A stretch of 36,639 bases of DNA from Bacteroidales bacterium (GTDB lineage: Bacteria > Bacteroidota > Bacteroidia > Bacteroidales > UBA932). The stretch is taken from positions 1 through 36,639 of the forward strand of contig JAFZME010000127.1 of assembly GCA_017553405.1 (NCBI GenBank), read 5' to 3'. The stretch's first letter is position 1. Each line of letters starts with the position of its first letter. The position numbers and the translations under genes are program-made. The notes under the pieces are model-generated. The model was given only the letters and a program-made list of their open reading frames with translations. It was not told the DNA's origin and searched no databases. This document shows positions 3,001 through 27,660 of the stretch, piece after piece.

Positions 3001-3513
3001 ATTCTGAAGAAGGCTGCCGCCGTGGTAGTCGGCCCATTCATCGGTGAAGGCGATGTCTTCATAGGTATCAACACCCTGAAGAAGGGCGTTGTAGCAGAGG
3101 TGAGCGGTGCTCCCGTTACCAATCTGGGTCTGATCGAGGAGATCCCTTTCGGCCAGAGCATCTACGGTCTCGTAAGTACCGGGATAGATGATGTCGAACT
3201 CGGTGCCCTCGACGGGAGTGCCTTCAAATTCGGCCTCGTGGCCGCTGAAGCCGGCACGGATAGTAAAGAGCGAACTGTTTTCGCCGGAGCGTACACGGAT
3301 TGCGTCCTCGTCCTGCCAGGCGAGCTTCATTCCCCTGCCGGCGGCAGTCTCGTCGGTAAGGGAGACTTTCGTGAGGGACTCGGGGATGGACACGCGGATG
3401 ACGGCACGGCCGTCCTCGGCGGGACGTTCAGGAGCGGGCTGCTCCTTGTTACAGGCCACGAAAAGGGTGGCTGCGGCCGCAGCGAATGCGGCAAGTCTCA
3501 TCAACTTTTTCAT
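1..3513 (-). CDS. Giant Pmp-type beta-helix lipoprotein (partial at C-terminus)
   Basis: The frame is open from ATG at 3513 to the left edge (1171 codons); the gene continues outside the window. The N-terminus is a lipoprotein signal (MKKLMRLAAFAA..., ending LFVAC, Cys21), so surface or outer-membrane anchoring is expected. Residues about 27-285 resemble the fimbrillin-like N-terminal domain of Bacteroidales surface proteins. From about 292 (EYFVTPTGAGNKSG) a right-handed beta-helix follows, built of Chlamydia-Pmp-like repeats with recurrent FxxN and GGA/GGAI motifs and many Cys-x-Phe strands. The last visible residues match the C-terminal part of the upstream 720-aa protein (VGxxFHxWxxG), so only a few tens of residues are probably missing. 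It is a close paralogue of the 1247-aa protein at 13287-17030. The start overlaps the stop of the 41-aa peptide gene by 4 nt (ATGA), which suggests translational coupling. Role inferred: adhesin or ligand-binding surface protein. Confidence 0.85.
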   Translation of the reverse strand, partial: MKKLMRLAAFAAAAATLFVACNKEQPAPERPAEDGRAVIRVSIPESLTKVSLTDETAAGRGMKLAWQDEDAIRVRSGENSSLFTIRAGFSGHEAEFEGTPVEGTEFDIIYPGTYETVDALAERDLLDQTQIGNGSTAHLCYNALLQGVDTYEDIAFTDEWADYHGGSLLQNGVLKLVVTLPDDASVVTRAALCGPGDCFFADNLAGSLTDEIFVTLQDVDVSQSSQVLTAYMNIAAFDVTLSAGETYRVKVTGADNKEYVKDFTLDAEAYLNAGKLNTIRLTAAGEVEILSEYFVTPTGAGNKSGADWDNALGIEEFRAVLATPASKAAEFDGVVFLLAEGDYYLAGEAGGAATLDFTGYLDEVAVDFVGGFPAGLTGTTVTGRDTTQFITAFTGNDDAAIIRIGNQVNAAFEGITFKKSLVNANSAALYAKAAEGTSSLYLTSCRFVNNNNSDAKSGAAVYISNNIDASIDNCYFGKNYARNGSAVNIDAESNVLITESLFYKNSSYNTSGALQNGGSTALVVESCNFVQNTAGSWGGGAFHCNGSSDTEFTNCVFSGNSAPQAGAVSIETASATFNDCSFGENVATNGDRSRAGNGELTNEETKKGTALDDNVAGGAILLRNANSACVLSDCEFIENSAPNGCGGAIASLNKDATLSINGLTQFSCNTAYFHGGAIFAKGFSVNGTSTDNVVFDGNKTLATGNQHANGGTIWLAAGTTTSISYASFIGGEAGQKDGSTVNYSNGGAISMKGVTSFLADHCEFTGCIGRNGGCLNLELGASSVCKFSDCDFHDNNCTSGSSGNFHGAAARVSYGTAIFERCSFTNNVANNGSGVFHLNNNKAARIECEDCTFTGNSAPNGNGGVATVEYGSFKGVRCTFSNNRVNVNGGSGTRYGGVFRCDDKDVNTLDLEGCTFTGNYANQGAVLNVNAKNLTRINNCVFEDNKADSRGMIQMNKGVVFINGTSFHNNKTTANNGWGVSLHGGAAALCLNNVTVYGNTNSSTTVGNNNAAINGPASLLITNSTVIESNQLALVRSDGTGPLVMCNNMLVNTVSGKDLFVVNNSSGTIVSLGHNAMGTTTNEKYSDPGTDLAGLTEASFGGAYEASASGVKKDVYVWNGSLTGFTPAVQADVEAAMTSNFAISVSDLSMSNVGQAFHDWLAGLTPAGYAA

Positions 3514-3635
3514 TGTCCGCCCTCCTCGTCATAAATGGTGTTCTCGTCGAAGTCGGCGAGCGCCGATCCCAGGAACGTGAGTTCCGCGAGAATCGACTTG
3601 CAGCGAACTGCTGGTGTGAAATAAACTTTTTTCAT
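3510..3635 (-). CDS. 41-aa acidic-tailed peptide upstream of giant Pmp lipoprotein
   Basis: Translated from ATG at 3633-3635 to TGA at 3510-3512: it begins MKKVYFTPAVRCKSILAEL, has a central FLGSA and ends in an acidic tail (DFDENTIYDEEGGQ). It starts 17 nt after the stop of the 720-aa gene and ends in an ATGA overlap with the giant lipoprotein gene, so it fills the only gap between two tightly packed genes. The start has a short A-rich stretch but no strong Shine-Dalgarno, as usual in Bacteroidota. There is no signal peptide or membrane segment. The pattern 'MKK-Y-x-x-P ... LxGS ... acidic tail' resembles the many uncharacterised 40-60-aa hypothetical proteins of Bacteroidales; I cannot assign a function. 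The 50-aa peptide at 17042-17194 occupies the same position before the paralogous giant gene, which supports it being real. Confidence 0.6.
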   Translation of the reverse strand: MKKVYFTPAVRCKSILAELTFLGSALADFDENTIYDEEGGQ

Positions 3636-3652
3636 AATATATGGATATTGAG

Positions 3653-5815
3653 TTATTGTGCTTGCCAGGCGCCGCAGGTGGCGGAAGCGCCGCGGGAATT
3701 TCCGAGCGCGTCCACTGCGAAGCCGTTGCCGTCAATCCCGGTCACCCAGGAATGGAAGTCGTCTCCCACGTCGGAAACGGTAAACACCGTCTGCGAGGAA
3801 CCGTCCACCGTGACAGAGCCGCTTACGCTTATCGGCATAGCAGTCTTCACAAGGTCTGCGATGCCGGCCGTAACCATCGGAGTGTGGCCCTCCAGGGTGC
3901 CGGCCCACGTGCACACGTGCTTGGAGGCATCCCAGGCCATCGAAAGGTCGCCGTATGCCGCATCCGACTTGTCGCCGGTGCCGGGCGTGTAGACCTTCGT
4001 CGAGCCGTCTGCGCCCGACACGGGGCCGACGATGCAGCTGCCGAGCGAGGTCACGTCGGCGGGTCCTGCGAACAGGACCGCAGGCTTCGAACTGAGGGTG
4101 TTGACAAGGATGCTGTTGATGAGCACCGCCTTCTTATCGCCCTCGATGCGCAGCCCGGCCATAGTGGAATGGTCCGCCAAGGTGGAATTGACTATCAGAT
4201 AGTTGGCCGTGCCGTTGACAGACGGGTCCTTGTCATTCTTACCCGTATTTTCGGTGATGGTCACGTTGTTCATACAGAGAGCGCCGAGGTTCGTCGCCTG
4301 GATGGCCACGCCCCAGTCGCCGGGGACCATCGTGCCGGTAATGGACGACCTGTTGATGTAGCAGAGACCGTTGTTGAGACGAAGGGCCGCACGGTTATTG
4401 GCATTGGTTCCGGCGATACGGCATTTGTCGATATAGAGCCGTCCCTGGCTCAGGAAGATTGCGCCGCCAGTACCGTAGGTTTCATTACCTATGAGCTCGC
4501 AGTCGGAAAGGTGGACCTGGCCGTTCGCCTTCAGCATAGCAATCGCGCCGCCGCCGTTGGAAGCGCTGTTCTGGTAGCTTTGGGAAGACTTGTTGTTCTT
4601 AAGGGTACAGCCCGTCAGTCTGACGATACCTTCTTCAAGCGACACGGCGCCGCCGTGGCCATAGGACTCGTTGGACTCGAACGTGCACTCCTTGCAGATC
4701 AGCTCGGATCCGCTGCCGTTGGTGTGGAGCGCACCGCCGGCATAGCCGGAAGCCTTGTTGCCTTTGAAGGTGCACCCTTCAAACAGGACCTTGCCGTGCG
4801 AGAGGTTGAGCACGCCGCCGCAGTTGGAGGAAGTATTTTCCGTAAAGGAGCAATCCTTCATCTGTACGTCGGCGTTAGCGTTGCTCACCGAAAGCGCACT
4901 GCCGTTCTTGGCTCCGTTTTCGGTAAACGAACATCCCTGGGCCGACAGCTTGCCCTTCTGGACAAGGATGGCCGCGCCGGAGCTGTTGGCGTCGGTGGCG
5001 TTGTTGCGGAAGGTGCAGTCCTTAAGAGTGGCTATGGCATCGCCTCCGCCGGCGGACAGCGTCAGCGCGCCGCCGTTGCCGGCCACGAACGCGTGAGCGA
5101 ATGTGAGGCCGTCAAGCGTAAGGTTGACCTGATTGCCGAGAATCAGGATGCGGTAGTCGTTCTGGTCGACGGAATTGCTTCCGTTGGCATCGCCGCTGAG
5201 GATGGTCTCGTTGGCCGCGACATTGCGCTGGGTGAGGTCGATCGCGGTCGAAGTCGCGGCATATCCGCCGTAGATGGAAATCTCCACCGGCTTTGAATAT
5301 TGCGTCCACTCGAGCTTTACGATTTTCTTTTCGGAATCGGCGAGCACATACTTGCCGGCCATAAGATAAATCTTCACGCCGTCAAGGGCGTCGGCCTGTG
5401 CATAGGCAGCATCGTTGTCCTGAGTGCCGCCGTCGCCGAGTTTCTGGGCTATCAGTTCACGCAGGCCTGCGGCATCCATAGCGTTGCCCCAGGAAGTGCC
5501 GTCCTTGAGGCCGGCCGCCTCCGGGCGCACGAAATAGACGCTGCCGTCGGTAATGCGCTCCTCGCCGGGGTCGTCCCCGCCGGGGTCATCTCCGCCCGGA
5601 TCGTCTCCGCCCGGATCGTCAGGGTCGTCTCCGCCCGGATCATCGGGATCGCCCGGGTCGCCCGGATCTTCCGGATCCTCGCCCGTGATGTCCTTGTTGT
5701 GGGCGTCGATCTCGGCCTGCGTCAGCATTTTGGCCTGACGGATCTCCGCAGTGGAGCAGGAGCCGATGAGGAAGGCCGAGACCAGAATCAAAAGTATGTA
5801 TAGAAGCTTTTTCAT
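3653..5815 (-). CDS. Pmp-type beta-helix lipoprotein with Asp/Pro/Gly linker (720 aa)
   Basis: Lipoprotein signal MKKLLYILLILVSAFLIGSC with Cys20. Residues about 45-86 form a low-complexity linker of DPGG/GGDDP units, which should hold the domain away from the membrane. A beta-helix region with Pmp-like repeats follows (for example SFTEN...CGGVLNLS, TFKGN...GGALHT, TFESN...GGAVSL). The C-terminus (DALGNSRG...CGAWQAQ) resembles the short C-terminal motif of 'choice-of-anchor Q' right-handed beta-helix proteins; the 480-aa neighbour has a clearer DARGEVRG...QPGAYDPN version. No catalytic motif is visible. It starts 12 nt after the 480-aa gene and is followed 17 nt later by the 41-aa peptide gene. 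Likely an outer-surface adhesin or binding protein co-expressed with SusC2/SusD2. Confidence 0.88.
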   Translation of the reverse strand: MKKLLYILLILVSAFLIGSCSTAEIRQAKMLTQAEIDAHNKDITGEDPEDPGDPGDPDDPGGDDPDDPGGDDPGGDDPGGDDPGEERITDGSVYFVRPEAAGLKDGTSWGNAMDAAGLRELIAQKLGDGGTQDNDAAYAQADALDGVKIYLMAGKYVLADSEKKIVKLEWTQYSKPVEISIYGGYAATSTAIDLTQRNVAANETILSGDANGSNSVDQNDYRILILGNQVNLTLDGLTFAHAFVAGNGGALTLSAGGGDAIATLKDCTFRNNATDANSSGAAILVQKGKLSAQGCSFTENGAKNGSALSVSNANADVQMKDCSFTENTSSNCGGVLNLSHGKVLFEGCTFKGNKASGYAGGALHTNGSGSELICKECTFESNESYGHGGAVSLEEGIVRLTGCTLKNNKSSQSYQNSASNGGGAIAMLKANGQVHLSDCELIGNETYGTGGAIFLSQGRLYIDKCRIAGTNANNRAALRLNNGLCYINRSSITGTMVPGDWGVAIQATNLGALCMNNVTITENTGKNDKDPSVNGTANYLIVNSTLADHSTMAGLRIEGDKKAVLINSILVNTLSSKPAVLFAGPADVTSLGSCIVGPVSGADGSTKVYTPGTGDKSDAAYGDLSMAWDASKHVCTWAGTLEGHTPMVTAGIADLVKTAMPISVSGSVTVDGSSQTVFTVSDVGDDFHSWVTGIDGNGFAVDALGNSRGASATCGAWQAQ
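5558..5683 (-). repeat. In-gene tandem repeat encoding the GGDDP linker
   Basis: About 15-nt degenerate units (CCGGGCGGAGACGAT-like on the coding strand) encode repeated GGDDP/DPGGD segments at residues 45-86 of the 720-aa lipoprotein. Unit length is a multiple of three, so slippage would change linker length without shifting the frame. Confidence 0.75.
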
Positions 5816-5827
5816 ATCTCACACGTT

Positions 5828-7270
5828 TTATTCGTCAAGATTGGGGTCATAGGCTCCGGGCTGGAAGCCGTCGTCGCCGCGGACCTCGCCGCGGGCATCC
5901 ATCGCAAATGCGTTCGGAGTCACCCACGTGGCATATGCACGCCCCATAACCGATATTCCGCAGTAATTGACCGGATTGAATCCCACGGCCGCGTCGTACA
6001 CCTCGTCCGCGATGGCATATCCCTTAAGGTCTTCCTCAACCTGCGATATGTTCCACTGCCAGCAATTCTCCGCAATTTCTCCGTTGAGGACAATATCCTT
6101 GGTCGTGTCCTCCCCAACTGTCGGATCGATGCAGCCGTCGCCGAGATGGATGCTCTTGATGAGGTTGTAGCCACGGGAGACCAGGACGCCGCTTGCGTTC
6201 ATCAGGAGACCGTAGCCAGACGCATTCTCGTTCGTCAGAAGGTTGTTGATAAGCGTCGTGTTGCGGTCGGTCTTCGACTCGCAGCGGAACGCGGCATTGT
6301 TGGTCCCGTCGGGCGCGGAATTGTCGATGATGGTGCTGTTTGAGAGGAAGAAGGCGCCGCCGCCGTTGAGCGTCGAGCCCTTGCCCTGGTTGCCGATCAT
6401 AGTGCAGTTGTTGGCACAGACCACGCCGTCGGAGTTCTGGATGGCCGAGCCGAACGAGCCGGTGATCTTGTTGCCGGTGAAAAGGCAGCAGTCGAGGTAG
6501 AGCACGGCAGTCTTCCCTATGGTGCGGATGGCGCCGCCGCGGCTTGTCGCGGAATTGTTCCTGAAGATGCAGTTCCTGGCCTTGAAATAGCCCGCCGTGA
6601 CGAAGGCGCAGGTGCCGCCTTCGTGCGAGCCCGTACCTGCCACAGCGTTGACATTGTCTTCGAAGATGCAGTTCTTGCACTCGACGGAAGTCTGCAGATA
6701 CATTCCGTTAATGCCGAAGACCGGAGAACCCTTGCCGGCGAGCTCGCCCTCCATCTCGGCTCCCTGGTAGAAATTCCTGAACGTAATGTTCTCGAACCGG
6801 ACGTTGCCTTCCGTCACGTGGACAAAGGCGCCGTCCCCTTCGTTTGCGATGCCGTCTTCATTGATGTCGCCGGTAAAGACCGTCGGCCACTGCTCCGGAT
6901 CGCACTCGCTCAGGTCGTCATACATAAGACCGGGCTTGTAGCCGCCTCGGACGCAGAGGATGTCCTTCGTTATGGGAAGGAATGCGTTCTCCTTCGCAGG
7001 CACGAGGTAAGTACCGCCTGCGATGTGGATGCCGGCTTCCGACAACCCGGAGTTGGGGTTGGATATCAGAGTCAGGAAATCCTTGAAAGGAAGGGCATTG
7101 CTCCAGTCGCTGCCGTTCTTCACTCCTGATCCCTCCAGGGTGACATACCAGTTCTCGGTGAATTCCTGCTCGATGACCGCGCCGCCGCTCGGGGGTACCA
7201 TATCGAAATGAGGCACGCAGGCCGCGAGCAGAAGACAGGGGAAAAGACAATATTTGATTATGTTTCTCAT
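5828..7270 (-). CDS. Pmp-type beta-helix lipoprotein, choice-of-anchor-Q-like C-terminus (480 aa)
   Basis: Lipoprotein signal MRNIIKYCLFPCLLLAAC with Cys18. After a short N-terminal segment (WYVTLEGSGVKNGSDWSNAL, the same opening motif as in the larger paralogues) the protein is a right-handed beta-helix with NNC/CxF strands and GGA motifs (CIFRNN...GGAIRT, CLFTGN, NGGGAFFLSN). It ends with DARGEVRG...QPGAYDPN, the motif seen at the end of choice-of-anchor Q right-handed beta-helix proteins. It lacks the fimbrillin-like N-terminal domain of the giant members. It lies directly downstream of SusD2 (12 nt) and upstream of the 720-aa paralogue (12 nt), so it is the first accessory surface lipoprotein of the second Sus module. 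No enzyme signature is visible; a binding role is inferred. Confidence 0.88.
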   Translation of the reverse strand: MRNIIKYCLFPCLLLAACVPHFDMVPPSGGAVIEQEFTENWYVTLEGSGVKNGSDWSNALPFKDFLTLISNPNSGLSEAGIHIAGGTYLVPAKENAFLPITKDILCVRGGYKPGLMYDDLSECDPEQWPTVFTGDINEDGIANEGDGAFVHVTEGNVRFENITFRNFYQGAEMEGELAGKGSPVFGINGMYLQTSVECKNCIFEDNVNAVAGTGSHEGGTCAFVTAGYFKARNCIFRNNSATSRGGAIRTIGKTAVLYLDCCLFTGNKITGSFGSAIQNSDGVVCANNCTMIGNQGKGSTLNGGGAFFLSNSTIIDNSAPDGTNNAAFRCESKTDRNTTLINNLLTNENASGYGLLMNASGVLVSRGYNLIKSIHLGDGCIDPTVGEDTTKDIVLNGEIAENCWQWNISQVEEDLKGYAIADEVYDAAVGFNPVNYCGISVMGRAYATWVTPNAFAMDARGEVRGDDGFQPGAYDPNLDE

Positions 7271-7282
7271 ACTTGTCGTGCA

Positions 7283-9079
7283 TTAGTTGGCTAAGGTCGG
7301 ATATCCGGGATTCTGAATCAGATAGGGATTGAGCTCCAGGGTGGACTGACGCAGGGGATAGATTCTGTTGTGCTTGTCGGCGTCGGCCGGCTTGTCCCAC
7401 CAGGCTTCCTCGAAGCGGTCCCAGCGGATCAGGTCGTCCCTGCGGCGGCCTTCGAAGATGAATTCCCTCATCCATTCGTCGAGGAATTCCTGGTCGTCGA
7501 GCTGCACCGTGCCGCTGTTCGAACCCACATAGGCGACACCGCTTCCGAAGCTGGTGTAGTTGCGCTTGCGCACTGAATTGAGCAGGGCGCCGGCAGCGCT
7601 GACCTGACCGTCACGATAGAGGCACTCGGCCTTGGAATAGACGATCTCCGTAAGACGCATATCCGTGAAGTCGGGCTCCATAAAATAGCCGCCCGCGTAA
7701 GGGTAGAACGGATACTTGACGCAGTAGAGGCCGGAATTCATATCCCCGTTGAACAGGGTGGATTCGGCACGGGAGGCATCGGTGATGGTCCCCGTAGGCG
7801 CGCCCGCCATAAAGCCGCCCACCTGGTCGAGCAGGTAGAGGTCATAACCCGCGTGGGCCTTGGCCTTCTTGCCGTCCTTGTCGATGATGTAGCCCTCCAG
7901 GAAGAACATTCCTTCCCTGGTGTTGTTCGTCAGGTTCTTATACTGCATATAGCGGAGGTCGCCGGGATACTTTTCAAACTTCTGCGTCGGGCAGCCGAGC
8001 TTATAATTATAAGGTGCCGCGTTGAAGGGCCGGCGGGGCGAACGGTTGTCGAAGGAGGGCGACAGGTGCCACCTCGGGTTGCGGCTTCCGTCCTGCGTTA
8101 TCTCCAGATATGACTGGGAATTGTAGGGCAGACCGCGGCCGTAGATGGTCCTGTAGTTGTTCTGCATATGCCACGATGTGGTACCGAACGAGGCAGGGTA
8201 GCCGAAAATCACTTCGGTGCAGGTCTCGTTGTTCCAGTCGAACGGCTCCCACCAGTTCTCCGCGAGCTGATAGTTGCCGAACTCGCCGTCAAGTATGCGG
8301 TCGCACATCGCGAGGCACTTGTCATAGGCGGGATAGCCCATCCAGACCTCGGTGTTGAGATACAGCCTGACAAGGATGGTCGCCGCAGCCGCCTTGGTGA
8401 ATTCGCCCTGATGAGTCCCGGGACCGGCATTGCCGATCTTGGAAGGGAGAAGATTGATGCAGTCGAGAAGCTCCGATTCGATGAAATCATACATCACATC
8501 CGGCGAGACCTGCTTCTTGCGCTCCACCTTCTCGTTCTCCGTAGTGGAGGAAGAGGTGATAAGCTGGCAGTTGCGGTACATATTGAACAGCTTGAAGTAG
8601 GCATAAGCCCTCATAGTGCGAAGCTGCGCTTCGAAAGCGTTCCACTCGGTCTCGCTGATGTCGGGGAATTTGCTGTGATCCAGACGCTGGATGTCGTCGA
8701 GCACCAGGTTGCACTGGGCGATACCCTGATAGGAATTGTTCCAGAAATCACCGATGTGGCTCTCCACGAGGTCGCCGGAGATGTCCTGCCAGTTGTGCCT
8801 GTGCCAGTCGGACCACTTGCCGCCGTCCCACCATCCGTAGGAATCCATCTGGGGTGTCATAAACACGTCGGCGCAAAGCTCCTCCATAGGGACATACCTC
8901 TGCACCGATTCGAAGAAGTGTTCGAACGGGCGGAAGACTGCCTTGACGACGTCGGACTTCTTGGTGTAATAGTTGGCGGACATCAGGGACGAATACACGT
9001 GCTCGTCCAGATTGGTGCAGGAGAAGACTCCCGCCAGTACCAATGCTCCGCAAATAACTGATTTGTATATCTTTTTCAT
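7283..9079 (-). CDS. SusD/RagB family nutrient-binding lipoprotein (SusD2, 598 aa)
   Basis: Lipoprotein signal with Cys21 (LVLAGVFSC). Typical SusD features are an N-terminal TPR-like helical region (RTMRAYAYFKLFNMYRNCQL, about residues 150-170), a large variable middle, and a C-terminus with DMRLTEIVYSKAECLYRDG, EFIFEGRRRDDLIRWDRF, and a final YPLRQSTLELNPYLIQNPGY. SusD proteins form the lid of the SusC barrel and bind the ligand at the cell surface. The gene follows SusC2 by 12 nt, the usual paired order. Length is in the family's normal range. The neighbouring genes contain no polysaccharide-degrading enzymes, so the ligand cannot be inferred from CAZymes. Confidence 0.96.
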   Translation of the reverse strand: MKKIYKSVICGALVLAGVFSCTNLDEHVYSSLMSANYYTKKSDVVKAVFRPFEHFFESVQRYVPMEELCADVFMTPQMDSYGWWDGGKWSDWHRHNWQDISGDLVESHIGDFWNNSYQGIAQCNLVLDDIQRLDHSKFPDISETEWNAFEAQLRTMRAYAYFKLFNMYRNCQLITSSSTTENEKVERKKQVSPDVMYDFIESELLDCINLLPSKIGNAGPGTHQGEFTKAAAATILVRLYLNTEVWMGYPAYDKCLAMCDRILDGEFGNYQLAENWWEPFDWNNETCTEVIFGYPASFGTTSWHMQNNYRTIYGRGLPYNSQSYLEITQDGSRNPRWHLSPSFDNRSPRRPFNAAPYNYKLGCPTQKFEKYPGDLRYMQYKNLTNNTREGMFFLEGYIIDKDGKKAKAHAGYDLYLLDQVGGFMAGAPTGTITDASRAESTLFNGDMNSGLYCVKYPFYPYAGGYFMEPDFTDMRLTEIVYSKAECLYRDGQVSAAGALLNSVRKRNYTSFGSGVAYVGSNSGTVQLDDQEFLDEWMREFIFEGRRRDDLIRWDRFEEAWWDKPADADKHNRIYPLRQSTLELNPYLIQNPGYPTLAN

Positions 9080-9091
9080 AGACAGTCCCGT

Positions 9092-12046
9092 TTAGAATCC
9101 GATCTGTACGCCGAAGACGAACTGGAAGGCGGAAGGATAGTAGGAAATGCTTCCGCCGAAAGTGCCCGGAGTCATCCCGTTGACGGGATAGACCGACGGA
9201 TCCACTCCGGTGAAACGCCTGAACGTGTAGAGGTTGGAAGCCGTGAAGAACGCGCGGATCTTCTCGATGAACTTCCTGTTGAAATTGTGAGTGTAGCCAA
9301 GGCTCACCTGATCGAGCTTGAGATAGTCGCCCGGCTCTAAGAAGTAGTCGGTGAGCACGTTGCGGCCCTTGGTGACCGCGGCGTTCTTCGCATATGCCGA
9401 TGTGAGAACATTGGTCGTCATACTCTGGAGCCCGTAGTAGAAATCGTGGACGTTGAATATCTCGAATCCGAGGGCGCTCCTGAGCGAGAGGCTGAAGTCA
9501 AACTCCTTGTAGGTCAAGGTGGTGGAGAACGAGCCGGTGAACTTAGGAAGACCGTTGCCGGTAATCGCCTTGTCGGCGTCCGTGCCCTGGGCTATCGGGA
9601 TGATGCGTCCGTCGGCCGCATAGATCAGCCAGTCTCCGCGCGTGTCCACGCCTGCATAGCGGTAGGTGTAGTAGTTGCCCACCCTTTGGCCTTCCTGCAG
9701 ACGCTGCAGGGAGCCGGGGTTGTTGGGATTGGACATCGAGCACATCGACACGTAATCCTGACCGGTGAATATGTCGTTGGAGAAGCTCTCGAACTTGTTG
9801 TCGGAGGTCGCGCCGATGATGGTGAACGTCCAGTTGAGATCCTCCGTGCGTATCGGATTGACCGTGATGTCGAACTCGAAGCCCTGGTTGCGCATAGAGC
9901 CCACGTTGGCGATGATGGTCGAAGCGAGGTTCGGCGGGACGGCCACGTTGTAGGAACCCAACAAGTCCACCTGATGGCGGTTGAAGTAGTTGAGGCTGCC
10001 GGTGATGCGGTATTTCCAGAAGCTGAAGTCTATACCGACGTTCTGGTTGTAGCCCTTCTCCCAGCGGAGGTCGGGGTTGACGTTGCCGGAAGGGCCCCAG
10101 ACCTTGAAACGGTCGCCGTTGTACTGGTAGTAGCCGAAGGCCCGGTAGGTCGAAAGCGAAAGGTAGTTGCCGATATCCTGGTTGCCGGTGACACCGAAGT
10201 CGTAGCGGATCTTCAGTTCGTCGAGCCAGGAGGATGTCTTCTCCATAAACGGCTCCTCGCTGATGCGCCAGCCCACTGAAACGGCGGGGAAGTTACCCCA
10301 CTTGTGGTTGGCGCCGAAGCGGGAGGAGCCCTCGTGACGGATGGACGCCGAAAGCAGGTATCTCTCCTTCCAGTCGTAGTTGACACGGGCGAAGAAGGAG
10401 ATGAGGGTGTTGTCGGACTTGCTCGAGGACATCAGCACCTTGCCGTCCTCGCTCGCGAGGGAGCCCTCGCCGAGGTTGTTGTAGGTCGTGGCGTCGGTGG
10501 TGAAGTTGGTGTTGTTGGCCGCGAAGTTCTCGCCGACGTTGTAGGCAAAGGAATATCCGGCCATAAGGCGGAGCCTGTGGTCCTTGAGGAGCATTGAGAA
10601 ATTGGTCACCCACTCGAGGTTGACAAGCTGCGAGGTGTTGTCCTCCTTCTCGGCATAGCCGGTCGTGCCCGCGTTGACCTGCGCGGAATACGTGGACGGC
10701 TCATAGTAGCTGTGGTATTTGTCCACTATGTGGTCCGACAGAGTGACCATCGTGTTGAGTTCGAAGTTCGGATGGGCCGGGGTGAACAGCGGGAGGAGAT
10801 TGAGCTTCGCCGTGGCGTTCATCTCGAGGATGCGCACCTTGTCGAAGTTGATGACCTCTTTTGCCGTCTCCACGATGTTGGAGCCCGTGACGCCCGCCGC
10901 GAACTGGTAGTAGCCGTTCGGCGAAGTCTCGTCATAGACCGGATAGGTCGGGTTGTTCTGCAGGATGGCGCCGAAGCCGACCGAATTGTTCTTCCGGATC
11001 ACGCGCGGGGTAATCGCCGCGGAGAATGAGAACAGGCCGCTCTTGGTGGTGTGGTTCATAGTGGCACGCGCGCCGTACTCGCGGCGGTCCGAACGCAGGT
11101 CGATACCGGTGGCGTAGCGGTAGTCCGCCGTCACACGGTAGTTGGTCCTGGCATTGCCGCCCGAAAGGGTGAGCGTGTGCATATGCGTCATACCCGTACG
11201 GGTGGCCTCCTTGAACCAGTCGGTGCTGGCGCCGAAGTCCGCGAGCGGATTGTTGACGCAGCGGTAGGCGCGGTACTGCTCCGGGGTGAGCATCTGCAGT
11301 TCGCGCTTGGCCTGGTTGATGGTGAACGATCCGCTGTACTGTGTGTGGATGGAGCCGTCGCGCGAACCCTTTTTGAGGTTGACGAGAATGACGCCGTTGC
11401 CGCCACGCGTACCGTAGATCGCTGAAGCCGCACCGTCCTTGAGGACGTCGATGGACTCGATATCCGCCGGGTTGATATTGGTCATATCGCCTCCGGGAAT
11501 GCCGTCGATGACATACAGAGGACCCGTCCCCGCCTGGCGGGAAGCAACGCCACGGATCTGGATGTTGGCCTGATGGTTGGGGTCGGCGGACTGGCTGTTG
11601 TCGACGCTCAGGCCGGACACCTTGCCCTGCAGGAGCATCCTGGAGTCAAGCGAGGTGACCTGGTTGAGGTCCTTGGCCGACACGTGGGAGATGGCGGAAG
11701 TCATCTCCTTTTTCTTCATAGTGCCGTAACCGACGACGACGACCTCGTCGATGGTGTTGACCGCGGCCTCAAGCACGACACGAAGGTCCTTCTGCCCCTG
11801 GTAGCGGATCACCTTGTCCTGGAAGCCGATGAACGAAATGACGACATCCTGTCCCTTGTCGAGGACGAGGGAGAATTTGCCGTCGAGATCTGTGATGGCT
11901 CCGCTCTGAGTGCCCTGGATAAAGACGGACGCGCCGATGACCGGTTCGCCGTCCTCATCCACGACCACCCCCGTAAAGGGATCCTGCGCCGCCGCCATAA
12001 ACGGCAGAAGCAGGGCCGAGAGCAAAGCCAGAATGTTTCTTGACAT
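9092..12046 (-). CDS. SusC/RagA family TonB-linked outer-membrane transporter (SusC2, 984 aa)
   Basis: Signal peptide MSRNILALLSALLLPFMAAAQ. Residues about 24-95 form the carboxypeptidase-D-regulatory-like domain (TGVVVDEDGEPVIGASVFIQ), followed by the family motif VVVVGYG at 102-108. The plug domain follows with RGVAS, PLYVIDGIPGGD, DIESIDVLKDGAASAIYGTRGGNGVILV, and then a long beta-barrel ending in an aromatic terminus (FGVQIGF). This is the import channel for the substrate bound by SusD2, energised by TonB/ExbBD, which are not in the window. The start lies 16 nt after the stop of the GDPD lipoprotein gene, so the barrel is expressed behind the first Sus module. No N-terminal FecR-interacting (STN) extension is visible, so ECF-sigma signalling through this protein is unlikely. 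Confidence 0.97.
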   Translation of the reverse strand: MSRNILALLSALLLPFMAAAQDPFTGVVVDEDGEPVIGASVFIQGTQSGAITDLDGKFSLVLDKGQDVVISFIGFQDKVIRYQGQKDLRVVLEAAVNTIDEVVVVGYGTMKKKEMTSAISHVSAKDLNQVTSLDSRMLLQGKVSGLSVDNSQSADPNHQANIQIRGVASRQAGTGPLYVIDGIPGGDMTNINPADIESIDVLKDGAASAIYGTRGGNGVILVNLKKGSRDGSIHTQYSGSFTINQAKRELQMLTPEQYRAYRCVNNPLADFGASTDWFKEATRTGMTHMHTLTLSGGNARTNYRVTADYRYATGIDLRSDRREYGARATMNHTTKSGLFSFSAAITPRVIRKNNSVGFGAILQNNPTYPVYDETSPNGYYQFAAGVTGSNIVETAKEVINFDKVRILEMNATAKLNLLPLFTPAHPNFELNTMVTLSDHIVDKYHSYYEPSTYSAQVNAGTTGYAEKEDNTSQLVNLEWVTNFSMLLKDHRLRLMAGYSFAYNVGENFAANNTNFTTDATTYNNLGEGSLASEDGKVLMSSSKSDNTLISFFARVNYDWKERYLLSASIRHEGSSRFGANHKWGNFPAVSVGWRISEEPFMEKTSSWLDELKIRYDFGVTGNQDIGNYLSLSTYRAFGYYQYNGDRFKVWGPSGNVNPDLRWEKGYNQNVGIDFSFWKYRITGSLNYFNRHQVDLLGSYNVAVPPNLASTIIANVGSMRNQGFEFDITVNPIRTEDLNWTFTIIGATSDNKFESFSNDIFTGQDYVSMCSMSNPNNPGSLQRLQEGQRVGNYYTYRYAGVDTRGDWLIYAADGRIIPIAQGTDADKAITGNGLPKFTGSFSTTLTYKEFDFSLSLRSALGFEIFNVHDFYYGLQSMTTNVLTSAYAKNAAVTKGRNVLTDYFLEPGDYLKLDQVSLGYTHNFNRKFIEKIRAFFTASNLYTFRRFTGVDPSVYPVNGMTPGTFGGSISYYPSAFQFVFGVQIGF

Positions 12047-12062
12047 ATACTATTGTTTTTCC

Positions 12063-13274
12063 TTAATTCTGAAGAAGTGTCTTCCCGTATTCGAGAAGGG
12101 CAGCACGCGCCTCGGCGCCGGTGTCGACGTGGATGCACTGGCAGGCCGGGAACACCTCGAAGATATTCTGCACCTGGGCCACCTTGAAATCCTTCGGATA
12201 GAGCTGGCCGCTGTTCGTGGTGTAAATCGCATTGACGGTAAGAAGCGTGCCTGCATTGACCGCATTGGCCACCGTCGATGCCGACGTGGGGCTGCCTGTG
12301 GATCCGTCCCGCGATGCGGACGCCTTGGTCGCCTTCCATTCACACTGGGTGAAATAGAGGTTGCCGGCTACTCCGTTGTCGACGAGTTCCTTGCCGTGAC
12401 TCACCCAGCTGTAGACATTGCACTGCGGGTTGGTCTGGAATGCCGTCTTGATCTTCTCAAGGGAGTTGCAATAGACGAGCACCTGCTGCGTCATTCCCTT
12501 TTTCTCTATGGCGGTCACGACATCCGGGATGGATGCATTGCGGTCACCGAGGTCGACGTTGACGTAGATTCCCCCTTCCTTGCACGCATCCAGATATTCA
12601 TCGAAGGTGAGCATCCTATATTCCGTGACGTTGCCGTTGCGGTCTTTGAGGTTCAATTGCTTGATCTGGGAGAGAGTCTTGCTTGCAATGGAGCCGCTGC
12701 CGTTGGTCTCCCTGCCGAGGTCGGCGTCGTGAGAGACCACGAGAATGCCGTCCTTGGTGGTGTAGAGGTCCGTCTCCACGATATCCACCTTATCCTCGAC
12801 GCATTTCATAATGGCGGCTTCGGAGTTCTCCGGGATGGTCCAGTCGGAGGAATTGGCCCTGTGGGCCATCACAAGACACAGGTTCGGGTTGGCCTTGAGC
12901 CTCTGCGCAAGAGACTGCAGCGCTTCGAGCTTCTCCACCCAGACCTTGAAAGTCTGCTTCTCCAGCTCGGCCGGCTCCATAGTGACGGTTATCGTCTTGG
13001 AACCGGAGTTCTCGAATGCATAGGAAAGCAGCCCGGGGCCGGTCCTGGTCAGCGTCTTCTCCTTGCCGAACTTGACGGTCACCTCAGTCGAGGAAGAGAT
13101 ATTGGAGATGGTGACAACCACCTTCTCCCCCTTCATCGCCCTTCCGGAAATCGCCTGATGACAGACCACTGTGGGCGGCAGATTCAGGCCGCCGCCCTTG
13201 TTCTTGTCGCACGACACTGCCGCCGCCACAAGGCAGCAGCACAGGGCCGTGAGAATCACAAATCTGAATTTCAT
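12063..13274 (-). CDS. PKD-like + glycerophosphodiester phosphodiesterase lipoprotein (403 aa)
   Basis: Lipoprotein signal with Cys22 (AAAVSC). Residues about 30-115 look like a PKD/Ig-type beta-sandwich. From about 130 the GDPD (GlpQ/UgpQ-type TIM barrel) begins. AHRAN carries the catalytic His138 and Arg139, IPEN gives Glu149-Asn150, VETDL gives the metal ligands Glu167 and Asp169, and SHD gives the second catalytic His182. All key residues of the family are present, so activity is plausible: hydrolysis of glycerophosphodiesters to sn-glycerol-3-phosphate and an alcohol at the cell surface or in the periplasm. The C-terminal half is more divergent than in housekeeping GlpQ. It is the second GDPD of the operon (the other is fused, 17215-20328) and sits 16 nt upstream of SusC2. 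Confidence 0.9.
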   Translation of the reverse strand: MKFRFVILTALCCCLVAAAVSCDKNKGGGLNLPPTVVCHQAISGRAMKGEKVVVTISNISSSTEVTVKFGKEKTLTRTGPGLLSYAFENSGSKTITVTMEPAELEKQTFKVWVEKLEALQSLAQRLKANPNLCLVMAHRANSSDWTIPENSEAAIMKCVEDKVDIVETDLYTTKDGILVVSHDADLGRETNGSGSIASKTLSQIKQLNLKDRNGNVTEYRMLTFDEYLDACKEGGIYVNVDLGDRNASIPDVVTAIEKKGMTQQVLVYCNSLEKIKTAFQTNPQCNVYSWVSHGKELVDNGVAGNLYFTQCEWKATKASASRDGSTGSPTSASTVANAVNAGTLLTVNAIYTTNSGQLYPKDFKVAQVQNIFEVFPACQCIHVDTGAEARAALLEYGKTLLQN

Positions 13275-13286
13275 ATTGATAACGTA

Positions 13287-16200
13287 TTAATTCTGCTGAT
13301 AAGCCCCCGGCCACCAGGTGCCCGTACGGGCGATGCCGCGACCGTCGTACGTGTAGTCTTTCGTGGAATTCAGCCAGGTCTTGAAGTACGCGCCGGCATT
13401 GGTACTGCCAAGCGCAGCGCAAGTCTGAGTGTAAGCATCGATAGCTCCTTCTACATCACTCGAGGTTGCCGCTGTAAAACCTGCCAGAGGGCCTGTCCAG
13501 CTATAGACGCCGTAATACGGAGAAGTTGTGGTATTTAACTCCCACGCACCGGAAGTGAATGAGGAGGCGGTACAGTTTGTCAAATCCGTCGCATCGTCCG
13601 CGCCGCAGGATCCACTCATTGCGTTATGGCCGTTCGACGTCGTGCTGGAAGTGGCGGAGTGTATAATCTTAGATGCCGCTCTGGTATTGACAAGAATATT
13701 GTTGCAAAGCCGGACGGACTGACCGTTAGCACGAATCAGGTATGGCGAATTACTGATAACCGTACTGTTAATAATAAGGATAGGCGTATCACCATTGATT
13801 TCCACACAACTATCATTAGGAGAGCCTTGCGTAAAGCTGTTGTTATAGAACGTACAATTGTTTATACAGGCTGCAGCTGTACTTGCGCCGCCGTGAACAG
13901 ACATTCCCCAGGCGGAGTTTTCCGACATTTTGTTGTTATAGAACGCACAGCTGTTTAAGAATATGGCCGAATTTCCCTCATAGTTGATCACGGCGCGGGA
14001 TCCCCCGGTATTGTCGGTAAATATGCACCGATTGGCTTTTAGGATTCCGTATTGTTTCAAAGAAATAACAATGCCGAAACGGTATGCCTTATTACCAGAG
14101 AATACACAATCCGCCACATCGATAGTTATAACCTTTCCACTTGCTCCTTCCGCCCTTATGGCAGCTCCATAATTGTCACCGCTGGCGGCAGTGCCAACCT
14201 GGTTATTTTTGAATGTTGATCTTTTGGCATTAATTTTTACTGTTCCGCCGTTGGTGCCACCCGTATAGACATAGATAGCGCCTCCCTGTTTGGTGGCTGC
14301 GCTCTTGCAACTGCTTACTTCTGTATCATTCAGATTGAGCGTACCTTTCACCATATAAATCATACCGCCGGCACTAGCCAACGCGTCTCCCCCTGTAATT
14401 TTACAGCGGTTAAAGGTATAGGTGCCGTTCTCCTGACAGAAAGAGCCGCCCGAGCTTGTCATAGCGTCATTATTCGTAAAAGTACAGTCATTGCATTCAA
14501 CAGTGGCGGCCGAATTCATATGAAAAACGGCACCGGATTGATAGATTTTGTTATCGGTGAAGGTGCATGTGTTGAATGTGGCTTTCCCAGTTCCTCCGAA
14601 ACGGGCGACGGCGCCGTGGAAGTTGCCGGCAGAGCCGTTCTTGGACTCCCCGCTTCGGCCGATATTGTCGTGGAAAGAGCAGTCGGTAAAGGTTATCGTA
14701 CTGCTAGTGCCCGGTTCAATATTGAGAGCGCCTCCATTACGGCCACGGCAGGCTGTGAATTCGCAATTACTAGCCGTGAAAGAAGTAACAGACTTAATAG
14801 AAATGGCTCCGCCGTTGGAATATTCGACCGTGCTGTCGTCTTCCTGACCCGCCTCGCAGCCGTCAAACTTGGCGTAGCTGATTGAATAGGTCTTGGAATT
14901 TGCTAACCAGATGGCGCCGCCGTTGGCTGTTTGACCATAACCGGTTCCGCTAGCGTCAAGTGTTTTGCAGTTGGTAAACGTAACTTTTGAATCGCTTGTC
15001 CCCGTGATGGTAAAGTTCCCCATCGCAAAGATGGCCCCGCCGTGGAAGAAGGCGGTATTGCCGCTGAAACTGGTACCAGCATTGATTTTCAAGGTGCTGG
15101 ATGCACCGGTGATGCCGATAGATCCTCCGCATCCGTTAGGGGCTGTGTTGTTCTCAAATGTACAGGCGTTGATGGTCAACGTTCCGCTCCCGCGATTGAA
15201 AATGGCACCGCCTGCCACGTTGTCGTCAAGGGCTGTACCCGTACTGGAAGTCAACTCGCCGTTTCCAGATCTGGATTGATCGCCTTTGTTGGCGGTGTTG
15301 GCGGTGAAAGTACATCTGGTAAAAGTAGCGGAAGAAGAACTTTCCAGAGAAATGGCACCACCTTGACCTGTACAACTGTTGGATGTAAAGGTGCAGTCTT
15401 CAAACGTCGTATTAGCGCTGCTGCCAGTGTGGAATGCGCCACCGTAGGTGGGACAACTGTTGCTGGTGAATGCGCAGTGGTCAAAGGTCACATTGGTCTG
15501 ACCACCATTCTGAATAGCGCCGGAAGTGTTGGACGCGCTGTTGTTCTCAAAAGTACAGTAAGAGAATGTCTTAGCCCCCTCATTGCCATTGGGTAAATAC
15601 AGCGCACCTGCATTGCGGGCGTAGTTTCCTTTGAAATAACAGTGTGAAAGGGAGAGGGCGGCCTTATATGCAATAATACCAGCACCACTCTTTGCGGTGG
15701 TGTTCTTGTTGTCGAGAATACGGCAATAGTCAAGGTTGATTGAACAATTACCTGTTGTACCGGCGGCACAATTCAGCGCACCATCATCCTTGCTGCCGTC
15801 GAATTTGGCATCCTTGAAGGTAATGCCTTGGAAAGTGATATTTGTCTGATTGCCAAACACGAAGATTCCCGCCTCTTCGTTGCCGGTAAAGGCGGTGCAG
15901 TTGGTCGGGGCCGTTGCTTCGGCAGTCGGTATTGTCCAGCCGGAGGTGTTCGTACCTGTCAGATTATCGGGATAACCGCCCTTGAAGGTCAGAGCTACCT
16001 GTTTGCTGTATCCGTTAAACTCAACCTTGACTCTCTTGGAGGTCTCACCCTCTGCCAGGTAGTAGTCGCCCTTGGCCATATGGAAGGTGACGCCGTCGAG
16101 GACGGAGGCTTGGTATTCTGCAGCGCCCTCAACCTGCTTGATGAGGCCCCGGAGTTCGGCGGTGCCGAGAGCGTTCTCCCAGTTCTTGCCGTTCTTCTTG

Positions 16201-17030
16201 CCGGCACCGGCGGGGGTGACGAAGTAGTTGGAGATGCTCTTGTTGTCGATAGCGCCGAGGGTGGTGATGGTCCCGCGGGCAAGTGCGACCTCGACCGGAA
16301 GGTATGCGGCCGGAGCAGTGTTTTCGCCCTCATAGAGGGAGACTGAGAAGCCGCCTTCGAGGGTGCAAGGGAGCACCGAGATGTAGTAATCGCCGGCGCC
16401 GCTCAGCGTCACCTCAATCTCCTTGGCAGGGCTGGTCACCTCGCCAAGGGCAGGAGCGCCGGACATATCGACGGGGACCGTACCGGCGAGGGTTTCACCC
16501 TTTCCGCCGCGGAAGACCGCCTTGGTGTAGGAGGCGCCGCTCACGGAGAATTTAACGAGTGCCGTGATGTTGGCAAACTGGAAGTCGAGGTCGGCGTCGG
16601 TCGTCTTGGCGACAGCGATGTTGGCGGCGGCGAAAGCGCCGGTCTGGCTGGCCGGGACTGTTACCGTCAGTGTTTCGTCGGCAAAAGCCGAAGCAACTCC
16701 CGAAGGATAGGCCGCATAGTAAAAGTCGGCCTCGCCGGGCGTCGCGGCGGGCGTAAATGTCGTGGTGACATCGGCAGAAGCGGCCGTCGCGGTCGTGCTG
16801 CCACCATCCCAATACACGGAAATCTCGTCTCCGACGGCCCATTTGACTATTTTTTCATTGCCTTCGCCATCCTCGACGGTGGTCTTTGTGAGTTCGCCGG
16901 TAGTGGCGGTGAAGACAAATTCATCCTGTGCGGGCAGGACATCCTCGTCCTGCACCTTCTCTTTGTTACAGGAAATCGCTGTTGCGGTCAGTACCGCTGA
17001 AGCAAGCAAATAGTAGAATATACGTTTCAT
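13287..17030 (-). CDS. Giant fimbrillin-like + Pmp-type beta-helix lipoprotein (1247 aa)
   Basis: Lipoprotein signal MKRIFYYLLASAVLTATAIS with Cys21. Residues about 33-260 form a fimbrillin-like N-terminal domain (TKTTVEDGEG...VKWAVGDEISVYW, then a strand-rich segment with DYYISVLPC). From about 268 (NYFVTPAGAGKKNGKNW) a very long beta-helix follows, with Pmp-like FxxN and GGA/GGAI repeats (CTFENN, CAFTSN...YGGAFHT, CTFTSN...GGAISL). The C-terminus DGRGIARTGTWWPGAYQ is choice-of-anchor-Q-like. It is clearly paralogous to the partial gene at the left edge: both share TALDDNVAGGAI, APNGCGG, FFHGGAIFA/YFHGGAIFA and GNFHGA in the same order. The start lies 11 nt after the 50-aa peptide stop. No catalytic residues are recognised; role inferred as surface adhesin or receptor. 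Confidence 0.9.
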   Translation of the reverse strand: MKRIFYYLLASAVLTATAISCNKEKVQDEDVLPAQDEFVFTATTGELTKTTVEDGEGNEKIVKWAVGDEISVYWDGGSTTATAASADVTTTFTPAATPGEADFYYAAYPSGVASAFADETLTVTVPASQTGAFAAANIAVAKTTDADLDFQFANITALVKFSVSGASYTKAVFRGGKGETLAGTVPVDMSGAPALGEVTSPAKEIEVTLSGAGDYYISVLPCTLEGGFSVSLYEGENTAPAAYLPVEVALARGTITTLGAIDNKSISNYFVTPAGAGKKNGKNWENALGTAELRGLIKQVEGAAEYQASVLDGVTFHMAKGDYYLAEGETSKRVKVEFNGYSKQVALTFKGGYPDNLTGTNTSGWTIPTAEATAPTNCTAFTGNEEAGIFVFGNQTNITFQGITFKDAKFDGSKDDGALNCAAGTTGNCSINLDYCRILDNKNTTAKSGAGIIAYKAALSLSHCYFKGNYARNAGALYLPNGNEGAKTFSYCTFENNSASNTSGAIQNGGQTNVTFDHCAFTSNSCPTYGGAFHTGSSANTTFEDCTFTSNSCTGQGGAISLESSSSATFTRCTFTANTANKGDQSRSGNGELTSSTGTALDDNVAGGAIFNRGSGTLTINACTFENNTAPNGCGGSIGITGASSTLKINAGTSFSGNTAFFHGGAIFAMGNFTITGTSDSKVTFTNCKTLDASGTGYGQTANGGAIWLANSKTYSISYAKFDGCEAGQEDDSTVEYSNGGAISIKSVTSFTASNCEFTACRGRNGGALNIEPGTSSTITFTDCSFHDNIGRSGESKNGSAGNFHGAVARFGGTGKATFNTCTFTDNKIYQSGAVFHMNSAATVECNDCTFTNNDAMTSSGGSFCQENGTYTFNRCKITGGDALASAGGMIYMVKGTLNLNDTEVSSCKSAATKQGGAIYVYTGGTNGGTVKINAKRSTFKNNQVGTAASGDNYGAAIRAEGASGKVITIDVADCVFSGNKAYRFGIVISLKQYGILKANRCIFTDNTGGSRAVINYEGNSAIFLNSCAFYNNKMSENSAWGMSVHGGASTAAACINNCTFYNNSFTQGSPNDSCVEINGDTPILIINSTVISNSPYLIRANGQSVRLCNNILVNTRAASKIIHSATSSTTSNGHNAMSGSCGADDATDLTNCTASSFTSGAWELNTTTSPYYGVYSWTGPLAGFTAATSSDVEGAIDAYTQTCAALGSTNAGAYFKTWLNSTKDYTYDGRGIARTGTWWPGAYQQN

Positions 17031-17041
17031 AGTGCCTTCAT

Positions 17042-17194
17042 TTAATCGTTATCGTCACCCCAATATTCATCCCAGTCAACAATTACCTCGGTGTAGCCGG
17101 AGGCTCCGCCGAGAATCTTTTCCTGTGGCGAGAACGATATTTCGTCTGCCCACGGAGGCACATAAGGCCCGCTTTTCACGTGATAAATGTTCAT
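17042..17194 (-). CDS. 50-aa acidic-tailed peptide upstream of giant Pmp lipoprotein
   Basis: Translated from ATG at 17192-17194 to TAA at 17042-17044. It begins MNIYHVKSGPYVPPWADEI, has ILGGASGYTE in the middle and ends very acidic and aromatic (DWDEYWGDDND). It is bracketed by a 20-nt gap after the GDPD-PQQ fusion and an 11-nt gap before the 1247-aa lipoprotein, so without it there would be a lone 184-nt hole in an otherwise seamless operon. There is no signal peptide or transmembrane stretch. Like the 41-aa peptide at 3510-3635 it sits immediately before a giant fimbrillin/Pmp gene and shares a short LG(S/G)A segment followed by an acidic end. Sequence similarity is otherwise weak. Function unknown; secreted tag, chaperone-like partner, modified peptide precursor or regulatory leader are all possible. 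Confidence 0.6.
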   Translation of the reverse strand: MNIYHVKSGPYVPPWADEISFSPQEKILGGASGYTEVIVDWDEYWGDDND

Positions 17195-20200: not shown

Positions 20201-20328
20201 TGGCCGCCTTCCTGGCCGCCTTCTTCCTGACCGCCCTGCTCCTGGCCTTCCTTGGCCTTGTCGCAGGAGACGGCTACGAAGGAAAGTCCTGCAAGAAGGC
20301 AAATGAATATGTTTAAAATCCTTTTCAT
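17215..20328 (-). CDS. GDPD + fimbrillin-like + PQQ-type beta-propeller fusion lipoprotein (1037 aa)
   Basis: Lipoprotein signal with Cys22 (FVAVSC), then a Gln/Glu/Gly-rich linker (about 28-45). Residues about 70-320 are a glycerophosphodiester phosphodiesterase: AHRAN with His78-Arg79, PEN with Glu92-Asn93, VEIDI with Glu110 and Asp112, and CCHD with His125, so the catalytic His pair and metal ligands are intact. A Pro/Asp linker (325-338) leads to a fimbrillin-like beta-sandwich (about 345-565, including IIAAYYPYQDDM). Residues about 575-1037 form a PQQ-like propeller with repeated 'aDGnvY/aiG..cvYiGn' blades, ending SWPMRGADARHSG, the closing motif of this propeller family. It overlaps the preceding propeller gene by 4 nt (ATGA). 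The propeller is paralogous to that of the upstream 559-aa protein. A three-part surface enzyme of this kind is unusual; the propeller probably binds the substrate or cell-surface partner. Confidence 0.9.
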   Translation of the reverse strand: MKRILNIFICLLAGLSFVAVSCDKAKEGQEQGGQEEGGQEGGQDTPGHISKPLLTLWDEVIEGVKASGTRDRIFIVAHRANTVAGASAYLPENSIPAVEMAITKGVDMVEIDIRPTKDYELVCCHDPTINATTNGSGTVADMTYEEICQYDMRRGSKIYKDAEGNTIKIPTLKEMLLACKDKIYVNLDISGKNVPVSRCVRIIQECEMENQVMVYVGGSYSLANEFQFKDQTIAVHPQIASAEGIATYASLPGAKLFQYSNTLYLSDNPNIGKQVHAAGALSYSNLLDSYDTQIKKGNYAAVDKFIASESDYVQTDVFELVDAYLREKGLRKGSPIEPIDPDQPIDPGTAVEGSVVAYYVTGKDWPEGAKIGLWTADDNNMEFTLASSTGNKGGFNGRKTEDSPIIAAYYPYQDDMNDMSDIPVVIPTEVTVGEDVPVFAVAQVKEDGELQFIEKTAALKVKFKDFEGTDYNGKEIKSVSVSSSYRKLFGSYSADASYPTRALAPNEPAASACLNFPAGTTIADGLEAMTVIAPIAKANDEYKITIELVGETLELTTKLTSSVSAGETMELEVSGEEFIPSIRMEWGLATGARFAGQYPAVDADGNVYYTLDADTKLYKVSPQGQLLWSQEIGFTGNQKTSPAIEADGSVIYATGGSGGTGCLTAFNSDGTVKWAFTSDKFFNKGNDPTPNFNYTTPAIGPTCVYIGNAGGTGTVLSVNKTTGERVAYVGNADGSGGPSGGAYTGVSVSKGGVVSWAASYGLFAASQAEMDNPSNTHETFGAYVPWGLRSGYNWNSGQPWNKVSPNMGIACSSFDGHDYLVFPAIEQTSSGTYNLRLFWEDASQGLATTAPGLTQNWLKAVNVQNIGKQDQGGIVIGPRGEAIVSLKKDPTTGNGGIIAYLPDGTKAYEFSVGKEDVGGAAAVDNNGNIHVVADWTGDYFIVKPDYDAHTCEIVAQVRLLDAAKKVDSSVSSAERIRFWSSVIIGDDGKMYVGGTTVQNSIQSGYLMCLSYPGVTGPGQTSWPMRGADARHSGVQKQ

Positions 20329-26610: not shown

Positions 26611-26704
26611 CAAGGTCTCCTTTTAGCTGCCGGACCGTGCGCGCCGAAGCCACGCAGAACAAAGAAAACCCCGCAAGGTCCCCGGCCTGGAATCAGACCT
26701 TGCG
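26611..26704. repeat. REP-like double-hairpin element, copy A (next to RAYT)
   Basis: This 94-nt element is about 94% identical (6 mismatches) and equal in length to 29079-29172. It contains two imperfect inverted repeats of CAAGGTC/GACCTTG. The first is weaker here (CAAGGTC...GACCGTG); the second is perfect, with 9-nt arms CGCAAGGTC...GACCTTGCG. The halves are joined by a conserved GAAGCCACGCAGAACAAAG spacer. It overlaps the last codons and stop of the RAYT transposase. Paired hairpins beside a RAYT gene fit a REP/BIME-type non-autonomous element. Confidence 0.75.
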
Positions 26705-27613: not shown

Positions 27614-27627
27614 AGCATTTTTTTCGG

Positions 27628-27635: not shown

Positions 27636-27660
27636 GCGGTGGAGGAGGGGAAAAACAATG

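Follow-up and report, generated by a model that had tools for sequence, protein, structure and literature searches.

Why should two very short reading frames occupy the only large gaps of a long bacterial operon, each directly in front of a gene for a giant lipoprotein? The question is raised by a contig of a Bacteroidales bacterium (JAFZME010000127.1, assembly GCA_017553405.1, a draft genome of 2.25 Mb), which was analysed over its entire length of 36,639 nt (hereafter, the window). A run of minus-strand genes extends from position 26501 down to 1 and encompasses two SusC/SusD pairs, two GDPD proteins and three Pmp-type lipoproteins; its sole large gaps, of 139 and 184 nt, are the sites of frames for peptides of 41 amino acids (aa; 3510..3635, minus strand) and 50 aa (17042..17194, minus strand), and all remaining gaps are 16 nt or shorter. 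The stop of the 41-aa frame overlaps the start of the lipoprotein gene at 1..3513 in an ATGA (3513-3510), and 11 nt separate the stop of the 50-aa frame from the start of the lipoprotein gene at 13287..17030; both downstream products contain a lipobox and a beta-helix (PF13229). The initial annotation of this DNA had described this layout correctly, except that it counted two Pmp-type giants and missed the third (3653..5815), and had suggested a two-gene module in which the peptide could be a dedicated partner, a modified or exported peptide, or a translational regulator. The module is supported by our analysis, and the modified or exported peptide fits best, given a YxxP leader of the type found in ribosomally synthesized and post-translationally modified peptides (RiPPs) and, in some lineages, processing genes of the linear polyphosphorylated peptide (LPP) type in the same loci. 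We consider these peptides to be probable precursors in an LPP-like RiPP system of Bacteroidota, in which the precursors have multiplied and become paired with pilin-headed surface lipoproteins.

The 41-aa peptide belongs to a family. A single-sequence search with the 41-aa peptide gave four matches in other genomes, of which two are true relatives, both from one genome of the same genus and each immediately 5' of a lipoprotein gene; the 50-aa peptide gave no convincing relative. A three-peptide profile matched 57 of 151 genomes of the genus at E 0.5, where the weakest matches may be due to chance. With a 45-member profile run on eight chosen genomes at E 0.5 (some of the places found being members of the profile itself), there are 24 places in the window's own genome, one of them probably false, 24 in G034, 21 in G069, 19 in G208, 6 in G016, 4 in G081, 3 in G067 and none in G013. 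When the whole order was scanned with a 39-member profile, matches at E 0.05 were obtained in 24 of 247 genomes, two of these belonging to the window's genus.

The family is defined by a 20-residue N-terminal consensus, Y-x-x-P-x-x-R-x3-L-x2-E-x-N-F-L-x-S. In a gapless alignment of this core from 62 distinct peptides, both window peptides included, Y and P are present in all 62, E or D in 58, F, L and S in 49 each and R in 46; the sample was found by profile and is hence biased, having been fetched from more than 100 places listed at E up to 0.5, chiefly short frames with low E values. Behind the core comes a variable, mostly acidic stretch, frequently with W, F or Y at or close to its end. 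No model for the peptides was found in Pfam or NCBIfam, the databases that the search covered (PHROGs and PADLOC lying outside it). The family is under purifying selection: in the 22 of 26 close pairs for which it could be computed, the ratio of nonsynonymous to synonymous substitution rates (dN/dS) is between 0 and 0.48, with a pooled pS of 0.45 and pN of 0.18, values that come from non-independent pairs, neither window peptide having had a partner close enough to enter. In one genome (G257, loci L150-L160), members stand alone, and several share a different, LWGDDE-like tail end.

In the window, the 41-aa precursor-like peptide consists of the putative leader core YFTPAVRCKSILAELTFLGS and an acidic tail, and the 50-aa peptide of YVPPWADEISFSPQEKILGG and an acidic tail. 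The initial annotation had noticed that both share an LG(S/G)A segment; this is the end of the conserved core, over which the two peptides align without gaps (Y0, P3, E13/14, L17, S/G19). After both window peptides had been removed from the profile, it still recovered the 41-aa frame, with E 4e-9 among the 181 small open reading frames (ORFs) of the window, and a core-only profile recovered it with E 3e-4. The 50-aa frame reached a non-significant E of 0.78 in the former search and was absent from the best eight of the latter. Kinship is firm for the 41-aa peptide; the 50-aa peptide, judged by its position and YxxP motif, is probably a divergent member.

The association with lipoproteins extends well beyond the window. 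A protein with a strict lipobox is encoded directly downstream at 72 of 91 examined places, and the gap between peptide and next ORF is at most 50 nt at 82 of the 89 places with a downstream ORF, most commonly 13 nt (17 of 89), in a survey where the start choice put a few partners, such as L048, in the wrong position. In the window's own genome, 19 of the 24 places directly precede a lipoprotein gene, the other five being a secreted protein without a lipobox, a lone peptide, a contig end, an unclear case and the probably false match; in G016, a lipoprotein follows four of the six peptides. Evolution near neutrality and a lack of enrichment next to such genes were the outcomes that the initial annotation regarded as unfavourable to its proposal; the dN/dS values are low and most matches have such a lipoprotein as neighbour, G257 clearly departing from this pattern.

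What the partners have in common is their N-terminal domain, behind which they vary (beta-helix, leucine-rich repeat (LRR), Glug, M64 peptidase or BACON parts). Because Mfa_like_1 (PF13149) was detected in only 11 of 63 partners, scanned over their first 450 residues, we modelled this domain from the 1247-aa lipoprotein of the window (13287..17030, minus strand; residues 21-265, followed by the Pmp beta-helix). The model, with a predicted local distance difference test score (pLDDT) of 81.6, has the two-domain fimbrillin fold of type V pilins and matches Bacteroides fimbrial proteins, with FimA and Mfa pilins ranking lower. The other paired lipoprotein (1..3513, minus strand; 1171 aa, cut by the contig end) likewise has a lipobox Cys, an N-terminal fimbrillin-like domain and a beta-helix, and a domain profile matches the two at E 1e-46 and 7e-38, both being in its training set. 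The 720-aa Pmp lipoprotein (3653..5815, minus strand) provides an internal control: it has no peptide in front, and the domain profile gives a non-significant E of 0.079. Since this third Pmp protein lacks both, the partner feature is the N-terminal type V pilin (fimbrillin) domain and not the Pmp beta-helix named in the initial annotation. Type V pilins (FimA/Mfa) share the fold; here, the domain is fused to the diverse parts listed above.

In the reverse comparison, starting from the domain, 67 of 80 domain-bearing lipoproteins of the fetched loci are accompanied by a peptide, most of them being the seeds; the default filters of HMMER missed some domain proteins in this table, such as that at 1..3513 of the window (E 7e-38 with the filters off), and two of the 13 rows without a peptide (L045, L069) are actually paired. 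Among the 24 non-seed domain proteins, 8 have a new peptide, and several of the rest lie behind a further lipoprotein of this type within their operon. The control set comprised 326 genes; the same loose YxxP test was positive in front of 26, of which 9 are true members by eye (8/24 versus 26/326, p 0.0008). In 56 pairs from the genus, tail similarity tracks similarity in the N-terminal domain of the partner (Mantel r 0.156, p 0.0002) more closely than similarity in the C-terminal part (r 0.107, p 0.008), and the leader core follows neither (r -0.02, p 0.69, and 0.02, respectively); the other pairs of the 91 were set aside because they came from beyond the genus or were truncated, short, distant or duplicated. 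Such a pattern, though small in size, would be expected of a leader read by common enzymes and a tail reserved for one partner.

Which enzymes these might be is suggested by the loci of PqqD, a protein present in all 13 chosen genomes. At many of these loci, a set of five genes recurs, encoding an HprK-like kinase (K), a signal-peptidase-like protein (S), PqqD (B), an NTP_transf_5 protein (N) and an MsbA-like exporter (D); the remaining PqqD loci lack some or all of K, S, N and D. Clusters of this kind that contain a precursor occur in G108, G371, L246, L255, L267, L300 and L310. The gene order is peptide-K-S-B-N-D in G108 and peptide-lipoprotein-K-S-B-N-D in G371, and all five processing genes occur with both peptide and lipoprotein in a Bacteroidaceae metagenome-assembled genome (MAG; L246), a Bacteroidia MAG (L255), Sphingobacterium corticibacterium (L310) and Phocaeicola sartorii JCM 17136 (L267, where the lipoprotein frame is split in the record). 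The window peptides lie outside any processing cluster and would be served in trans: their genome has all five genes, with B, N and D on contig C10, K on C136 and S on C168, and K and S were found in all 16 genomes of the genus that were searched, this one included.

The linkage exceeds chance expectation. Beyond the genus, 12 genomes of the order have both a peptide and PqqD; counting a single PqqD for each and accepting only matches with an E of 1e-3 or lower, 4 of them place a peptide no more than about 10 kb from PqqD (0.30 expected, p 7e-5); with the two genomes that prompted the test (G371, G392) removed, the figure is a weaker 2 of 10 (p 0.028). In an independent sample, in which named genomes with the kinase were scanned and the best 80 loci of a longer list retained, 15 kinase loci contain a peptide and none does in reversed sequence; a lipobox protein follows the peptide in 13 of the 15, one of which (L311) looks spurious.

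Residues with a presumed role in catalysis or binding are conserved in the peptidase and in PqqD. Ser40, His77 and Asp92 of the peptidase, its putative catalytic residues, are invariant (14 of 14), and it matches TIGR02228, the archaeal-type signal peptidase model, below the cut-off of the latter (E 2e-6 and 2e-8). PqqD (PF05402) has invariant Asn35 and Asp73 (10 of 10), and its profile has a lone match in the PDB at E 0.01, TfuB1, a lasso-peptide RiPP recognition element (RRE; E 1e-5). The kinase model (pLDDT 93.3) has the HprK/PEPCK fold, with HprK/P and PEPCK structures retrieved by Foldseek, and matches TIGR04352 weakly (E 6e-4); N is PF14907 (E 1e-35 and 6e-40), and D combines ABC_membrane and ABC_tran domains.

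Several further loci deserve mention in their own right. In G208, G069 and G064 (L225, L226 and L236), very similar peptides, with tails like DDGYDPGIDLGDL, lie 0.1-2.6 kb from a lone kinase gene. PqqD/kinase loci from other families (G118 and G378) encode YxxP peptides of 78 aa (L203:6261-6497) and 72 aa (L201:5707-5925) with Pro-rich tails, possibly precursor variants. A 41-aa WxxP peptide adjoining a weakly matching kinase-like gene in G308 (L206:8685-8810) resembles paeninodin-type lasso precursors, yet comes from a genome of this order. A second PqqD locus of G013 (L184, C1), with sulfotransferase-like and asparagine-synthase-like genes, appears lasso-like by eye.

The closest known counterpart is the LPP system (Popov et al. 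2026), which, in the available part of that report, combines five core genes (a SpI-like peptidase, a discrete RRE, an HprK-like kinase, an NTP transferase and an MsbA-like exporter) with precursors that have a YxxP leader, a variable C terminus and a conserved Ser near the leader end, all of which apply to the loci described here; some loci of both kinds adjoin capsule-type genes, judged by eye for Bacteroidota (PMC13381572). According to the same part, LppB binds YxxP, with N33 and D70 holding its Pro and Tyr, LppK phosphorylates Ser, and LppS, which requires S29, H68 and D93, removes the leader (PMC13381572). By spacing rather than alignment, Asn35 and Asp73 of the Bacteroidota PqqD correspond to LppB N33 and D70, and the peptidase keeps the Ser, His and Asp. 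The discussion of the LPP report restricts LPPs to Bacillota, and its peptidase cluster is described as "predominantly" from that phylum (PMC13381572), whereas the present system belongs to a different phylum, has a fimbrillin-like lipoprotein after the precursor and, in this genus, some two dozen precursors in trans. In its YxxP start, the family is also reminiscent of the lasso leaders to which PqqD-type elements bind (in the available part of PMC12710340), and paeninodin-like lasso peptides share with our loci the PqqD-type RRE acting on a YxxP/WxxP leader, the HprK-like kinase and a nucleotidyltransferase (PMC13381572, same part); no macrolactam synthetase or B2 protease was noticed in the peptide-bearing loci when these were inspected by eye, without a profile test.

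Taken as LPP-like precursors, the peptides would be handled as follows. The conserved N-terminal segment would serve as a leader, its YxxP bound by the small PqqD recognition protein; the HprK-like kinase would phosphorylate a Ser at or near the conserved FLxS; the archaeal-type signal-peptidase-like protein would remove the leader; and the MsbA-like transporter would export the acidic tail, roughly 20-30 residues long. The target of each tail would be the N-terminal, pilin-like domain of the lipoprotein whose gene adjoins its own, where it would probably act on the cell surface as a ligand or in assembly. The processing locus itself contains a peptide-lipoprotein pair in some lineages; in this genus, the pair has multiplied to about two dozen copies, which the processing genes would serve in trans.

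A number of observations weigh against this interpretation. None of 12 examined peptides of G257 has a recognisable lipoprotein behind it (a secreted protein follows one of them after 27 nt); in G013, the processing genes are present and no peptide is found at E 0.5; and 65 of the best 80 kinase loci show no peptide in flanks of up to 8 kb. In the window's own genome, the kinase and the peptidase are encoded on contigs other than the window. Co-occurrence is weak, PqqD being present in 14 of 15 genomes with peptides and in 144 of 232 others (Fisher p 0.0098, uncorrected for kinship), and the tail-domain correlations are small, and linked inheritance alone could yield part of them. LppB is not among the four matches of the PqqD profile up to E 10 in a PDB copy whose content was not checked for LppB, and the His-Asp spacing of the peptidase is unlike that of LppS. 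Finally, the full LPP leader consensus, given as YxxPxVLxHQxIxFETxxS in the available part of the report (PMC13381572), contains HQ and FET, which are absent from the Bacteroidota leaders, and has E and S at 14 and 18, compared with 13 and 19 here; because of this difference, we call the system LPP-like rather than a member of the LPPs.

Alternative explanations fare worse. The immediate 5' position, the modal gap of 13 nt and the ATGA overlap in the window would all be natural features of a leader ORF whose translation opens the lipoprotein start, the peptide itself being a by-product. Such translational coupling appears unlikely, given that Y and P, far from the stop, are conserved throughout the alignment, that dN/dS is low, that the copies in G257 have no lipoprotein to couple to and that the G108 peptide precedes the processing-locus kinase instead. 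A cytosolic mini-protein, neither cut nor exported, that acts as a chaperone or inhibitor of the lipoprotein would account for the one-to-one pairing at most places and for the covariation of tail and domain; it would leave the linkage to an RRE, a peptidase and an exporter unexplained, and the lipoprotein presumably acts outside the cytosol, so that we give this possibility similarly little credence.

Export as a double-glycine (GG) peptide by a C39 peptidase transporter was considered in view of the short length, the conserved leader and the E-x2-[F/I]-L-x-[S/G] stretch, which resembles the GG leader consensus, chiefly through ILGG in the 50-aa peptide. We rejected it as a general reading, Peptidase_C39 being matched in only 6 of the 13 chosen genomes; the 7 draft genomes without a match include the peptide-rich G000, G034, G208 and G257, and YxxP would be left unexplained, which makes this the most improbable of the alternatives. 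Of a different kind is the suspicion that the 41-aa peptide alone is real and that the 50-aa frame arose by chance in the 184-nt gap. The leave-out E of 0.78, the single-sequence search and the positives of the loose YxxP test before control genes all speak for it; the frame nevertheless occupies the canonical place, has YxxP, E and IL.G at roughly the right spacing as well as an acidic tail, and precedes a lipoprotein of the paired type, so that chance seems to us the less plausible account, albeit one with appreciable weight.

If the peptides are indeed LPP-like precursors, a RiPP family that the 2026 description limited to Bacillota would extend to a dominant gut phylum and gain a frequent genetic partner, the pilin-headed surface lipoprotein, through which its role would become testable. 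A class of unannotated Bacteroidales proteins of 40-60 aa would also find a possible explanation, and the leader code could be mined. A bolder and rather speculative extension, which we regard as doubtful, is that Bacteroidota assemble a surface of combinatorial design: each genome would encode dozens of pilin-headed lipoproteins, each completed by its own phosphorylated and exported RiPP that docks into the head, for example, as a donor strand or cap, with one enzyme set shared by all. This would, to our knowledge, be the first RiPP class with a dedicated structural surface partner. We recognised no description of the peptide-lipoprotein pair in the open-access literature, a coverage that excludes most subscription papers and all preprints. 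In the available part of a study on RiPP mining in Bacteroidales, YxxP, fimbrillin and HPr kinase do not occur (PMC10352776).

Two neighbours in the window are also of note. In the GDPD lipoprotein encoded before the 50-aa peptide (17215-20328), an internal segment, residues 365-556, is fimbrillin-like (E 8e-14), and the C-terminal part has weak matches to propeller families. The operon is adjoined at its start by a gene of the Y1 (IS200-like) transposase family (26693-27658).

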